Both the position numbers and the translations under genes were made by a program. The notes beneath the pieces were generated by a model. It saw nothing but the letters and a program-made list of their open reading frames with translations, did no database searches and had not been told where the DNA came from. 64,000 nucleotides of DNA from Blakeslea trispora. Taxonomy: Eukaryota; Mucoromycota; Mucoromycetes; Mucorales; Choanephoraceae. Location: assembly GCA_025331445.1 (NCBI GenBank), contig JAIWNE010000027.1, positions 248,001 through 312,000 of the forward strand. The letters are read 5' to 3'. Shown piece after piece: positions 12,308-59,750 of the stretch. Numbering within the stretch: position 1 is the stretch's first letter; each line of letters opens with the position of its first letter.

Positions 12308-12380
12308 TGGAGAAGCTGGGCGTCGATCCCAGTGCCTCTCGCATGCTAAGCGAGCGCTCTACCATTTGAGCTACATCCCC
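12308..12380 (-). tRNA. tRNA-Ala(AGC): tRNA-Ala (anticodon AGC)
   Basis: Reading the minus strand gives a 73-nt cloverleaf: acceptor stem starting GGGGATG, D arm with AGCTC...GAGC, anticodon stem CTCGC/GCGAG around loop TTAGCAT (anticodon AGC), variable loop AGGCA, and T arm CTGGG/CCCAG with loop ATCGACG (a slightly unusual T loop). No intron. The acceptor stem has one T-T mismatch at position 6 and a G-T pair, so pairing is imperfect. A phased TCCGG array lies 55 bp upstream. Confidence 0.95.
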
Positions 12381-12435
12381 TGATATGAATTATTAGCCGA
12401 CTAATAAATAATATTCCACAAAAAAAATTAATTTG

Positions 12436-12493
12436 TCCGGTGAATTTCCGGCAAAAGTTCGGTAAAAGTGCGGCCCATGTAAAAAATTTCCGG
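12436..12493 (-). repeat. 11-bp phased TCCGG array upstream of tRNA-Ala
   Basis: Boxes TCCGG, TCCGG, TTCGG and TGCGG start at 12436, 12447, 12458 and 12469, exactly 11 bp apart, with A/T-rich 6-bp linkers; a further TCCGG at 12489 is off phase. The array begins 55 bp upstream of the tRNA 5' end. An AT-rich element (ACTAATAAATAATATT, 12400-12415) lies between array and gene. The same layout occurs at the other two tRNA genes. See findings. Confidence 0.8.
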
Positions 12494-12540
12494 AGCTGTA
12501 TCTCATTTTATGGCCATTTAAGATGCTCTCTCCAACTCTA

Positions 12541-12615
12541 GCCATGTCATGTCATGTCTTGTCTTGTCTTGTCTTGTCTTGTCTTGTCTTGTCTTGTCTT
12601 GTCTTGTCTTGTCTT
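12541..12615 (+). repeat. Pentanucleotide satellite (GTCTT)12
   Basis: Twelve perfect copies of GTCTT (12556-12615) preceded by degenerate copies GCCAT, GTCAT, GTCAT (12541-12555). The pure right part and decayed left edge suggest recent slippage expansion. Confidence 0.95.
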
Positions 12616-14034
12616 CAATATTAATACATTCATACTTGGGTAGGCACATTGATTTTGTTGAATAAGACTATGTTAATTAGCATTACATTCCTATTAAACT
12701 GATAAAACATTACTTTATCGAAATTACAATGATACATAATGATGTATTGAGTTATTAAATCAAGACATAATTCGAATTCATGTTATCAGATTTAAATTGT
12801 ACTCACAATATCAATCTGAACCAAACAAAGTCCTCTCTCTAGTCTTGTTTAACTACATCTTGACTTGACAGATCAGTTATATAGATGCTCTTCAATTATC
12901 ATCAGCATTGGTTGGAGATGCTCGAATTAGCTCAAATACATCAAATCATTGCATAAAAATACGGTATTTAAGCTTTTAATTATTATCTAGGTGGAAGAAC
13001 ACACTCAATCTCGATTGACTGCTTCCGGTTATTAACACTACCATAATTGAAGCGTATCATTAAACCTTGATTGTCAACAGTCAATTCAAACCTCATCTGT
13101 ATCTGAATGACACACAAATCTTGATTTACAATGCATAAATCGCTGTTGTAAATACATTAGTGATTTAAAGATAAACTCAATCATCCAAGTATTTATTAAG
13201 CTTACTCTAAAAGTGTAGCTAAAAGCTTTAGAGGACAAATTCAGAAACCCCGATTGTTGTCATCAACATAAAGAAAATTGCAACAGAAGGGGGAGCAGGA
13301 GTATAGCTTTCTTAATTATTTTTTACCAAAGTAGTGGTGAAATTGAGTGCAATGAGTTGGTTTTTGAAAAGCTCTTGTCTTTGTTATTTGATATTCCTTG
13401 AAGATGCAATCAATTTCATCCTAACAAACTTCCATTCAATTGTAATGCATGCAAAACATCTCGATAAAGTAAAGTCTATACATTAGCACTTTCAAGTGTA
13501 TAATACTAGAATCTCAAAACTATTTTCTAAACATATAAAACACACAACACAGAGAATACAAGGAAAGATGTCTGTATTCAAGTGTTTGAAAGCACACATA
13601 CTGACAGCCATTTTGCTGCTTGAAGCAGAGTTCAAAAGCTGCTAGATGCTTCACAACTTCTGAATCAAAGCGGTCTCTGTACTCCTGCTTTCAAAGTATG
13701 CTTGGCCTTTCCAGATTTTGATATAAATTTCAAACTTTTCATTAACACCATACCAAGTTTCGTATTTCTTTCTTCCAAAATCTATATAATCGCACACATG
13801 GATATGAACAAAAGCGTTGGATTTAGTTGGTGTATCGACTACAGATCAAGAAGATGCATGATCCTAATTGTCCATACGATTTCTCTAAGCCTTTTTCGGA
13901 GTCGAAGTCACAAAATCTGCATTTGTTTATGTGTCAGGATCAATAGATTTTCATCTGCTTCAGAAACAAAATAAAGATATTTTTCTTGAATTTTAACCTT
14001 TTTTTTTTTGCTGTGTCAATAAAATTTCAATACT

Positions 14035-54092: not shown

Positions 54093-54174
54093 CGTCGCCT
54101 GCAGGATTTGAACCTGCGCAGGCAGAGCCTATATGATTTCTAGTCATACTCCTTAACCACTCGGACAAAGCGAC
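54093..54174 (-). tRNA. tRNA-Ser(AGA): tRNA-Ser (anticodon AGA)
   Basis: The minus strand folds as an 82-nt class II tRNA: acceptor stem GTCGCTT/AGGCGAC, D arm, anticodon stem TATGA/TCATA with loop CTAGAAA (anticodon AGA), a long variable arm (TAGGCTCTGCCTGC), and T arm GCAGG/CCTGC with loop TTCAAAT. Discriminator G, as for tRNA-Ser. No intron. A runs downstream on the plus strand (T runs on the transcribed strand) can terminate Pol III. A phased TCCGG array lies 47 bp upstream. Confidence 0.96.
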
Positions 54175-54221
54175 TTCTTGTCTTCGAAATTTGCTTTGTA
54201 ATTAATAGAGCATTATTTATG

Positions 54222-54253
54222 TCCGGTAAAAGTCCGGTCCGGACATGTGTCGG
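54222..54253 (-). repeat. 11-bp phased TCCGG array upstream of tRNA-Ser
   Basis: TCCGG boxes at 54222 and 54233 (11 bp apart), then a second pair TCCGG at 54238 and GTCGG at 54249 (again 11 bp apart). The array begins 47 bp upstream of the tRNA 5' end. Same unit and spacing as the arrays at the other two tRNA genes. Confidence 0.75.
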
Positions 54254-58585: not shown

Positions 58586-59235
58586 AATAAGGAAAAAGGA
58601 AGAAGAAGTGAATAATAAAATTGGCTAAACTAACGCAACATCAAATCACTGACTTCTAAAACTAAGCGGCACACAATTGTGTGGATTCTCAAGCCGATCT
58701 TTATCTACAAACTAATCATTGTTATCTAGCTATTTTCATTCTGTCTCATCATAGCTCATAGGATTCATAACCAACATCTAACACGGAGTAGTTTATAAAG
58801 ATATTTACTATTCTTTCGAATCAAATTCAACTTCATGCTATTGCCTCTATTGTCATCAATGTCTTATATCAATACTTGTTTTTGGCTTATTGCATCTATC
58901 TGATTGTTATGTAAACTCCCTTAGTTTGTTTTGCTGATCGCACTTAACGATATCTATTTTCTCTTCTCTATTGGGGGTATCATTGTCATCCTCTGAGTAC
59001 AAAACCTCTTCTCTATCCAAGATCTATTTTTTTTTAAATACAAAACGGCAGAAGTCTGTTTAGACGTAATTTGGCATCATCAGAACCTTTATTAAGCATT
59101 TGTTACATCTAAAAAGTTTCAAGAGGTTAAGGTTGACTTGTAACTAATCACGATTGCTATAAAAACAAAAAGCTATCAAAAAAAAGAGGTAACTAATGAG
59201 TAAAGACATTACAGATTAAAAAAAAAAATCAAAAA
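58586..59235. other. Promoter of the HECT gene, spacer to tRNA-Ile
   Basis: About 650 bp of AT-rich sequence without coding signal. An A11 run at 59218-59228 (T run on the transcribed strand) just before 59236 can terminate tRNA-Ile transcription. Confidence 0.5.
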
Positions 59236-59309
59236 TGCTCATTACAGGGGTCGAACCTGTGACCTTGGCGTTATTAGCACCACGCTCTAACCAACTGAGC
59301 TAAACGAGC
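59236..59309 (-). tRNA. tRNA-Ile(AAT): tRNA-Ile (anticodon AAT)
   Basis: The minus strand folds as a 74-nt cloverleaf: acceptor stem GCTCGTT/AATGAGC, D arm GCTC...GAGC, anticodon stem TGGTG/CGCCA with loop CTAATAA (anticodon AAT), variable AGGTC, T arm ACAGG/CCTGT with loop TTCGACC, discriminator A. No intron. A five-box TCCGG array lies 53 bp upstream. Confidence 0.97.
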
Positions 59310-59750
59310 AGATATTATCTAAAATTAACTGGTAAAATATGTTCTTATTACTAATAATATTGTCCGGCGAAATTCCGGCGTTTGTTCGGTAAATTTCCGA
59401 CAAATGTTCGGCTCATTCAAATTACCAACGTATGCATATAAACATTAAACATCTAAAGATCTTTCTTATGGTCAATCATCAATGAATTGCTTGAGCCAAT
59501 AATATATAAAGCTGTTTATTTCTTATTTCTGTTGCTGATTAATTTAAATGGTAATTGCAGTATTCTTCTTTATTGATCCATGTATCTTGCTTTTGCTTAA
59601 TTGAAAAAAGTAAAAGGAAAATACTTGTGGACATTTGCGAATGTATGTATAAATTGTATGAATGTTGAAGTATGTAAAAAAAATAAAATAAGAAAGCAAA
59701 TGTGTTTTTTTTCTGTTGAGTTTAAGGAATAAATATACAAGTAAGTGTGT
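59310..59750. other. Spacer between tRNA-Ile and NUP170
   Basis: Holds the TCCGG array and the AT-rich 3' region of NUP170. No coding signal. Confidence 0.5.
59363..59411 (-). repeat. 11-bp phased TCCGG array upstream of tRNA-Ile
   Basis: Five boxes at exactly 11-bp steps: TCCGG 59363, TCCGG 59374, TTCGG 59385, TCCGA 59396 and TTCGG 59407. The array begins 53 bp upstream of the tRNA 5' end; between them is the AT-rich ACTAATAATATT (59350-59361), also present at tRNA-Ala. It is the longest of the three arrays. Confidence 0.85.

Follow-up and report, generated by a model that had tools for sequence, protein, structure and literature searches.

It is generally accepted that tRNA genes work from internal boxes, to which a TATA-like element is added at most. 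This locus raises the question of whether the tRNA genes of the Mucorales mould Blakeslea trispora possess something more, since short TCCGG-type boxes recur in steps of 11 bp upstream of three of them, and whether these arrays belong to the genes or were brought in by mobile DNA. The window, by which we mean the whole 64-kb stretch of DNA under analysis, lies on contig C190 and contains three tRNA genes, all predicted by ARAGORN on the minus strand. They are given here with their arrays and TATA-like stretches:

12308..12380, minus strand: tRNA-Ala (AGC), ARAGORN
12407..12414, minus strand: TATA-like stretch of tRNA-Ala at -34..-27, ATATTATT beginning at -34
12436..12473, no strand assigned: tRNA-Ala array, four boxes in 11-bp steps, starting 56 bp from the mature 5' end
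54093..54174, minus strand: tRNA-Ser (AGA), ARAGORN
54200..54207, minus strand: TATA-like stretch TATTAATT of tRNA-Ser at about -33, read from the sequence at the peak of the class
54222..54253, no strand assigned: tRNA-Ser array, two 11-bp series offset by 5 bp, starting 48 bp from the mature 5' end
59235..59310, minus strand: tRNA-Ile (AAT), ARAGORN
59333..59340, minus strand: TATA-like stretch ATATTTTA of tRNA-Ile at about -30, read from the sequence at the peak of the class
59363..59411, no strand assigned: tRNA-Ile array, five boxes in 11-bp steps, starting 53 bp from the mature 5' end

Re-reading of the 64-kb window bore out the box positions and the 11-bp steps that the original prediction had given for all three genes. 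The tRNA-Ala boxes read TCCGG (12436, 12447), TTCGG (12458) and TGCGG (12469), with an additional, out-of-phase TCCGGA nearby at 12489-12494. At tRNA-Ser, TCCGG is found at 54222, 54233 and 54238 and is followed by a degenerate GTCGG at 54249, while the tRNA-Ile array consists of TCCGG (59363, 59374), TTCGG (59385, 59407) and TCCGA (59396); the degenerate forms in the window are TTCGG, TGCGG, TCCGA and GTCGG. CCGG occurs 32 times in the window and forms three pairs that are 11, 22 or 33 bp apart, all of them at the three tRNA genes, and the six same-strand T[CTG]CGG pairs with an 11-bp step are likewise each located at one of these genes. An AT-rich element, ACTAAT...ATATT, which two of the genes were thought to share between array and gene, did not survive: ATATTATT begins at -34 in tRNA-Ala and at -50 in tRNA-Ile, and this stretch is present in 3 of 42 upstream regions that are free of repeats. 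It was discarded as a positioned motif, and the feature common to this place is a peak of TATA-like words at -34..-30. A run of TGTCT units is also present at 12552-12616, about 60 bp past the tRNA-Ala array region.

Frequency and layout of the arrays across the genome

The search covered one genome of 37.2 Mb in 285 contigs (C numbers denote contigs and L numbers fetched loci). TCCGG-N6-TCCGG occurs 76 times in this genome versus nine times for the reversed pattern, and three TCCGG in a row at that spacing occur ten times versus zero. A looser pattern was rejected as evidence for the spacing, because its reversed control yielded 369 matches versus 241 and the total consequently shows no enrichment; an 11-bp step was present in 30 of 100 listed matches out of these 241.

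For an estimate of frequency, 71 tRNA genes were gathered independently of the motif, comprising 57 Rfam hits, 11 genes reached via B-box sites (27 of 86 such sites were fetched as such) and the three genes of the window. The Rfam search scored 63 of 1905 candidates and yielded these 57 hits, which thus represent the best-scoring tRNAs and not all of them. In total, 101 tRNA predictions were reduced to 95 distinct ones, and the 24 known only from motif-fetched loci were excluded from the 71. Two or more CCGG at -130..-40 are present in 26 of the 71 genes, and at least one in 31. That every tRNA gene carries the array is accordingly true of the three in the window but not of the genome. The low share is largely explained by repeats: 22 upstream regions carry a CACTAC-type repeat end near -57 and eight an LTR-like edge near -10, and the remainder comprises 31 without a repeat end, eight that are duplicated together with their gene and two with another repeat ending at -50..-62.

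The 31 upstream regions without a repeat end are the most informative. They are defined by having no repeat of at least 80 bp that ends at the gene, at -3..-14 or at -50..-62, as judged against 349 kb of fetched DNA, with a genome-wide search for the tRNA-Ile and tRNA-Ser upstream regions; L029 and L076 are included despite repeats ending at -39 and -18, respectively. At -130..-40, 24 of these genes have at least one CCGG and 21 have at least two, compared with 0 of 2043 window stretches of 94 bp that hold two or more (Fisher p 6e-43, indicative only because the background stretches overlap). L001, an array gene classed as duplicated because its place was fetched three times, would change this count to 22 of 32 if moved. 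Six of the 31 genes have neither an array nor the CACGTG site described below according to the rule of the script, which indicates that the array is not required by all tRNA genes. In one of the six, L074, degenerate boxes are nevertheless visible and end in TTCGGCCCGGAC. As a separate observation, L022, L032, L072 and L078 (tRNA-Met, Lys, Thr and Phe) have near-identical 400-bp upstream regions that reach the gene; they may be copies with changed identity or insertions in the gene end.

The 11-bp spacing persists in this larger set. The 31 genes contain 98 boxes versus a mean of 17 in 500 dinucleotide shuffles (maximum 30), and same-strand boxes form 23 pairs at 11 bp, 12 at 22 bp and 8 at 33 bp, while the shuffles give a mean of 0.05 pairs at 11 bp with a maximum of two. 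Steps of 5 bp (seven pairs), 8 bp (three) and 19 bp (eight) are also present, so the phase is strong but not exclusive. The inverted form TCCGG-N-CCGGA occurs 13 times in the same genes. The box nearest to the gene has a median position of -55.5 with quartiles at -60 and -51 (26 genes). Across 42 non-repeat genes, 11 of which were collected through the motif, the AT content is 0.44-0.53 at -80..-51 and 0.74-0.79 from -50 onwards, and it is in this set that TATA-like words have their peak, at -34..-30 relative to the mature end. Two diverged pairs of upstream regions that stand at different tRNAs (L020/L109 and L106/L071) have, as judged by eye, kept their boxes while their linkers differ.

A second site, CACGTG, is found in 20 of the 71 upstream regions versus 0 of 2071 background stretches of 120 bp. 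Six of these sites lie near -96 within CACTAC-ended repeats and one more at -54, just below such an end; five are in LTR-like upstream regions (-51 to -55), four in duplicated ones (-50, -50, -81 and -83) and four in the 31 non-repeat genes (-62, -63, -65 and -78). All of these last four genes lack an array (p 0.007). The two sites can nevertheless occur together: L117, a locus collected through the motif, combines three CCGG with CACGTG, and L016 has CACGTG plus one distal CCGG. TGACGT or its complement is present in 5 of the 31 upstream regions versus 36 of 1522 and 4 of 549 background stretches.

The phasing by one helical turn, together with the GC-richer band at -80..-51 beside AT-rich DNA, is what a chromatin element would also display, i.e. 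GC boxes placed every 11 bp in AT-rich DNA that position a nucleosome or form a barrier with no specific activator. Such a role appears improbable to us, because the boxes share a specific sequence that also occurs inverted, unlike a generic GC period, and because CACGTG, another specific site, occupies roughly the same place in some genes.

Arrays, repeat ends and mobile elements

The relation of the arrays to tRNA genes can also be read from the motif. Subtracting the three in the window, the 76 pair sites correspond to 62 distinct contexts in the fetched loci, and 26 of these lie 30-150 bp upstream of an intact tRNA gene, 13 in each orientation. The other 36 have no intact tRNA gene at 30-150 bp. 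In seven of them (L005 twice, L103, L116, L060, L062 and L067) the proximal CCGG stands 48-63 bp above a tRNA 5' piece of 15-16 nt that breaks off into other DNA, and three of these seven are in addition located in repeats. One site (L050) abuts a CACTAC end, and 23 are in sequence that is repeated at other fetched loci, mostly in LTR-like families, with L002, L052 and L057 also abutting CACTAC ends. The last 5 of the 62 (L053, L061, L064, L100 and L107) stand isolated, with no tRNA, tRNA piece, repeat or CACTAC end beside them. The repeat check used one site per locus for the 30 loci that hold the 36 sites, and an Rfam search of these 30 loci revealed no further tRNA beside the sites beyond three distant ones from ARAGORN. 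One isolated array lies at an ORF resembling ribosomal protein eL19 (L064, named by eye). A ribosomal-protein regulon was considered on this account and dropped, because five isolated sites are no more than the nine matches of the reversed pattern.

The broken tRNA genes end after 15-16 nt at L103:611-625, L060:1575-1589, L062:1571-1585 and, on the minus strand, in L067, as well as in L005 and L116. Four like starts (L103, L060, L062 and L067), which we take to be tRNA-Val, run into one shared sequence, and two GCCGGCCTTAGCTCAG starts run into another, which suggests site-specific insertion in the A-box region. The four like starts have different upstream origins, and their proximal CCGG is at -57, -58, -62 and -63.

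In a BLAST comparison of 400-bp upstream regions among the fetched loci, most repeat ends fall into one of two zones, the first at about -5 to -13 and the second at -56 to -59. The more distant ends belong to repeats that terminate in TGTAGTG (TATAGTG in L013) upstream of 22 of the 71 tRNA genes, e.g., L012, L017, L018, L081 and L132. Their last base is at -56 to -59 in 21 of the 22 genes and at -52 in one, and they have several different terminal sequences. The class was defined by TGTAGTG or TATAGTG at -66..-50, and BLAST independently places the repeat ends at the same bases. These CACTAC-ended repeats are apparently tRNA-targeting elements. Their opposite end, CACTAC, adjoins array boxes in L050, L052, L057 and L002. 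On C42, the L002 array lies about 7.3 kb beyond the tRNA-Pro of L132, and the CACTAC end on either side has CGG next to it; on C28, the L050 array lies about 8.2 kb from the tRNA-Lys of L017, with a longer end-to-end match and no target duplication. Two intervals (C42, about 10.7-17.9 kb; C28, about 8.7-16.9 kb), of which the ends were read, are thus bounded by CACTAC on either side. A CACTA (EnSpm) DNA transposon would have CACTA terminal inverted repeats and duplicate 3 bp of its target, and the repeats near -57 are at most candidates for this class. In both cases the arrays look as if they had been pushed away from their tRNA genes by one element, which we infer to be a single one.

The repeats that end at about -5 to -13 are LTR-like and have edges with TG...CA. 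In family ii, two array-bearing copies at C27:7361 and 13532, 6.2 kb apart, enclose ORFs for gag (PF03732, in L049) and integrase (PF00665, in L048), which lie on the same strand between two direct LTR copies. This element has the gag and integrase between LTRs that characterise a Ty3-like LTR retrotransposon, while families i, iii and iv are known from their edges and repeat ends alone. The edge of family ii lies about 9 bp from the tRNA 5' piece in L062, and this one junction fits insertion near the Pol III start site. A different LTR-like repeat is present at the tRNA-Thr of L019, with a gag ORF further upstream on the strand that leads away from the tRNA.

In family ii the array stands close to where the LTR behind the integrase ORF begins, a possible place for a Pol II promoter of the element. 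The arrays might accordingly drive Pol II transcription, either of divergent transcripts or of the LTR element, their proximity to tRNA genes being due to chance. We consider this very improbable. The position of the array is fixed relative to the tRNA gene, isolated pair sites are as rare as stated above, and beyond the three arrays of the window the first ORFs with 330 aa or more are about 640, 790 and 3300 bp away, two of the three reading toward the array.

In six array-bearing types of LTR edge, most of them found through the motif, the distance from the edge to the proximal CCGG is 49 or 52 bp. Where such edges lie 9-11 bp from three tRNA starts, the proximal CCGG comes to stand at -58 to -63. 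With the box 49-52 bp from the edge and the edge about 10 bp from the tRNA, insertion would restore the native layout. Among the 71 genes, eight upstream regions are of the LTR type; one of them has an array (L008), five have CACGTG (L021, L026, L028, L036 and L083) and two have neither (L019 and L024). Six of the eight therefore carry an array or CACGTG at about the native distance, the array being in the minority.

These elements give substance to the alternative that the original prediction had named, a footprint of mobile DNA. On that account the arrays are an outer part of an LTR, fixed integration produces the fixed distance, and the single-copy cases are decayed solo LTRs. The C27 element, the LTR-like ends about 5-13 bp from several tRNA genes, and the pair sites in repeats (23, plus the three beside tRNA 5' pieces) agree with it, and it is half right, as LTR-like and CACTAC-ended repeats are present at these tRNA genes and arrays in several LTR-like families. 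As an explanation of the arrays themselves it is unlikely. The 400 bp upstream of tRNA-Ile (59311-59710) are single-copy genome-wide, and the tRNA-Ser upstream region has one weak partial match of 67% in a genome-wide search. Between array and gene, the 21 array genes that lack repeat ends do not resemble the LTR edges, with a mean score of 8.0 versus 8.7 for shuffles and none above its own 98th shuffle percentile, whereas seven LTR-bearing upstream regions score 22-34. Neutral decay would moreover not be expected to leave just the boxes, their phase and the TATA.

A candidate promoter element and its place among known systems

The sequence evidence favours an element that is native and also carried by LTRs, on account of the single-copy tRNA-Ile upstream region, the lack of LTR-edge similarity in the 21 genes and the diverged pairs that keep their boxes. 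The arrays are probably a promoter element that is native, lies outside the gene and belongs to a large class of tRNA genes in this mould. Read from 5' to 3', the layout begins in some cases with TGACGT(A) near -100 and continues with two to five half-sites of the CCGG type and then, at about -33, with a TATA-like stretch that is followed by the tRNA gene. The half-sites span about -110 to -47, many of them 11 bp apart and often ending in the inverted TCCGG-N-CCGGA. A sequence-specific DNA-binding protein may occupy the boxes along a single side of the helix, immediately above the zone of TFIIIB and TBP, and could aid the recruitment or stability of TFIIIB and Pol III, while TFIIIC would continue to act through the A and B boxes within the gene. 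Candidates for the binder include zinc-cluster proteins with CGG recognition and members of the CP2/Grainyhead group, and the CGG half-sites would fit Zn2Cys6 proteins. Any LTR element with insertion close to the Pol III start would carry a copy or mimic of this element at the distance that restores the layout.

Of the proposed new Pol III cis element, the analysis supports a non-random, 11-bp-phased array that is tied to tRNA genes and present on single-copy upstream regions, but not a general Pol III element. No CCGG array was found upstream of the matches to one U6 (L068), two U2 (L151 and L152) and two 5S genes (L069 and L070), and a general Pol III role was abandoned; the array looks like a device of tRNA genes. 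The two 5S matches are the only ones and lie on one contig, and the 5' part of L070 is different.

Type 3 Pol III promoters have a PSE about 40-70 bp above the start, plus a TATA box (PMC9652321). The Blakeslea arrays resemble them in that a specific upstream element stands above a TATA-like box at approximately the same spacing. The peak at -34..-30, measured from the mature end, agrees with the TATA position of type 3 promoters about 25-30 bp above the start. The genome also contains a SNAPC3 match (PF12251; G000:C233:37131-37703, minus strand, E 3e-41), found in a search that covered this one of the three core subunits. The array genes differ from type 3 genes by their tRNA structure with internal boxes, by tandem 11-bp half-sites and by the lack of an array at U6 and U2. 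Identity of the array with a PSE was not supported by sequence. The box has the position of a PSE but is not shared by the snRNA genes, and SNAPc is at most a candidate for the binder.

Fission yeasts and plants (upstream TATA) and S. cerevisiae (composite upstream motif) likewise have a TATA-like element some 30 bp in front of tRNA genes, but the sections consulted of PMC11547032, PMC11346459 and PMC4600332 describe neither a phased array at -50 to -110 nor a CACGTG alternative. Some fission yeasts have an upstream TATA at their tRNA genes, and the host of Tj1 apparently lacks one, a point raised with regard to harmless insertion (excerpt of PMC4600332). Among the open-licence titles listed, none dealt with tRNA targeting in Mucorales or, for the tRNA genes of fungi, with CACGTG or a phased array upstream.

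The LTR elements Ty3, Tj1 and DGLT-A lie upstream of tRNA genes, about 5-16 bp from the mature 5' end (parts of PMC4600332 and PMC5006619), and the LTR-like repeats of Blakeslea likewise end about 5-13 bp from tRNA genes. Different from these, the Blakeslea edges bear a host-type array or CACGTG at the restoring distance. Insertion upstream spares the internal promoter, and the effects of Ty1 and Ty3 on tRNA genes are neutral to mildly positive according to the portion seen of PMC5911963, which, in contrast to what the Blakeslea edges suggest, does not mention promoter mimicry. An LTR edge with its own upstream element would answer how insertion stays harmless at genes that need one. We propose, tentatively and as something rather less than probable, that an external phased array, with CACGTG as its alternative, governs tRNA genes and that retrotransposon edges carry a replacement promoter, mimicry being a way of harmless living. 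If this is true, a tRNA gene stays functional after every insertion and can receive another. With the array-bearing edges, the idea that mobile DNA protects its host through restoration of the interrupted promoter becomes open to testing. A phased upstream array on two thirds of the undisturbed sampled tRNA genes would mean that tRNA supply is under sequence-specific control in a lineage that has been little studied, and the array offers a clear bait for finding its binder.

Mobile elements at a fixed place relative to tRNA genes are also known from TRE5 non-LTR elements, which lie about 50 bp upstream of tRNA genes (excerpt of PMC5006619), and from Dada DNA transposons, which insert inside small RNA genes (excerpt of PMC3706591). 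Unlike these, the Blakeslea repeats end in CACTAC, read inwards, at -56 to -59. Further ORFs were observed on the downstream side of tRNA genes. Zinc-knuckle ORFs follow tRNA-Lys in L018:1935-2975 and L031:2023-3072, one above and one just below the Pfam cut-off, and are perhaps non-LTR elements on the 3' side. Downstream of tRNA-Trp, two minus-strand ORFs without a Pfam match (L011:393-965 and 969-1367) appear transposase-like by eye only.
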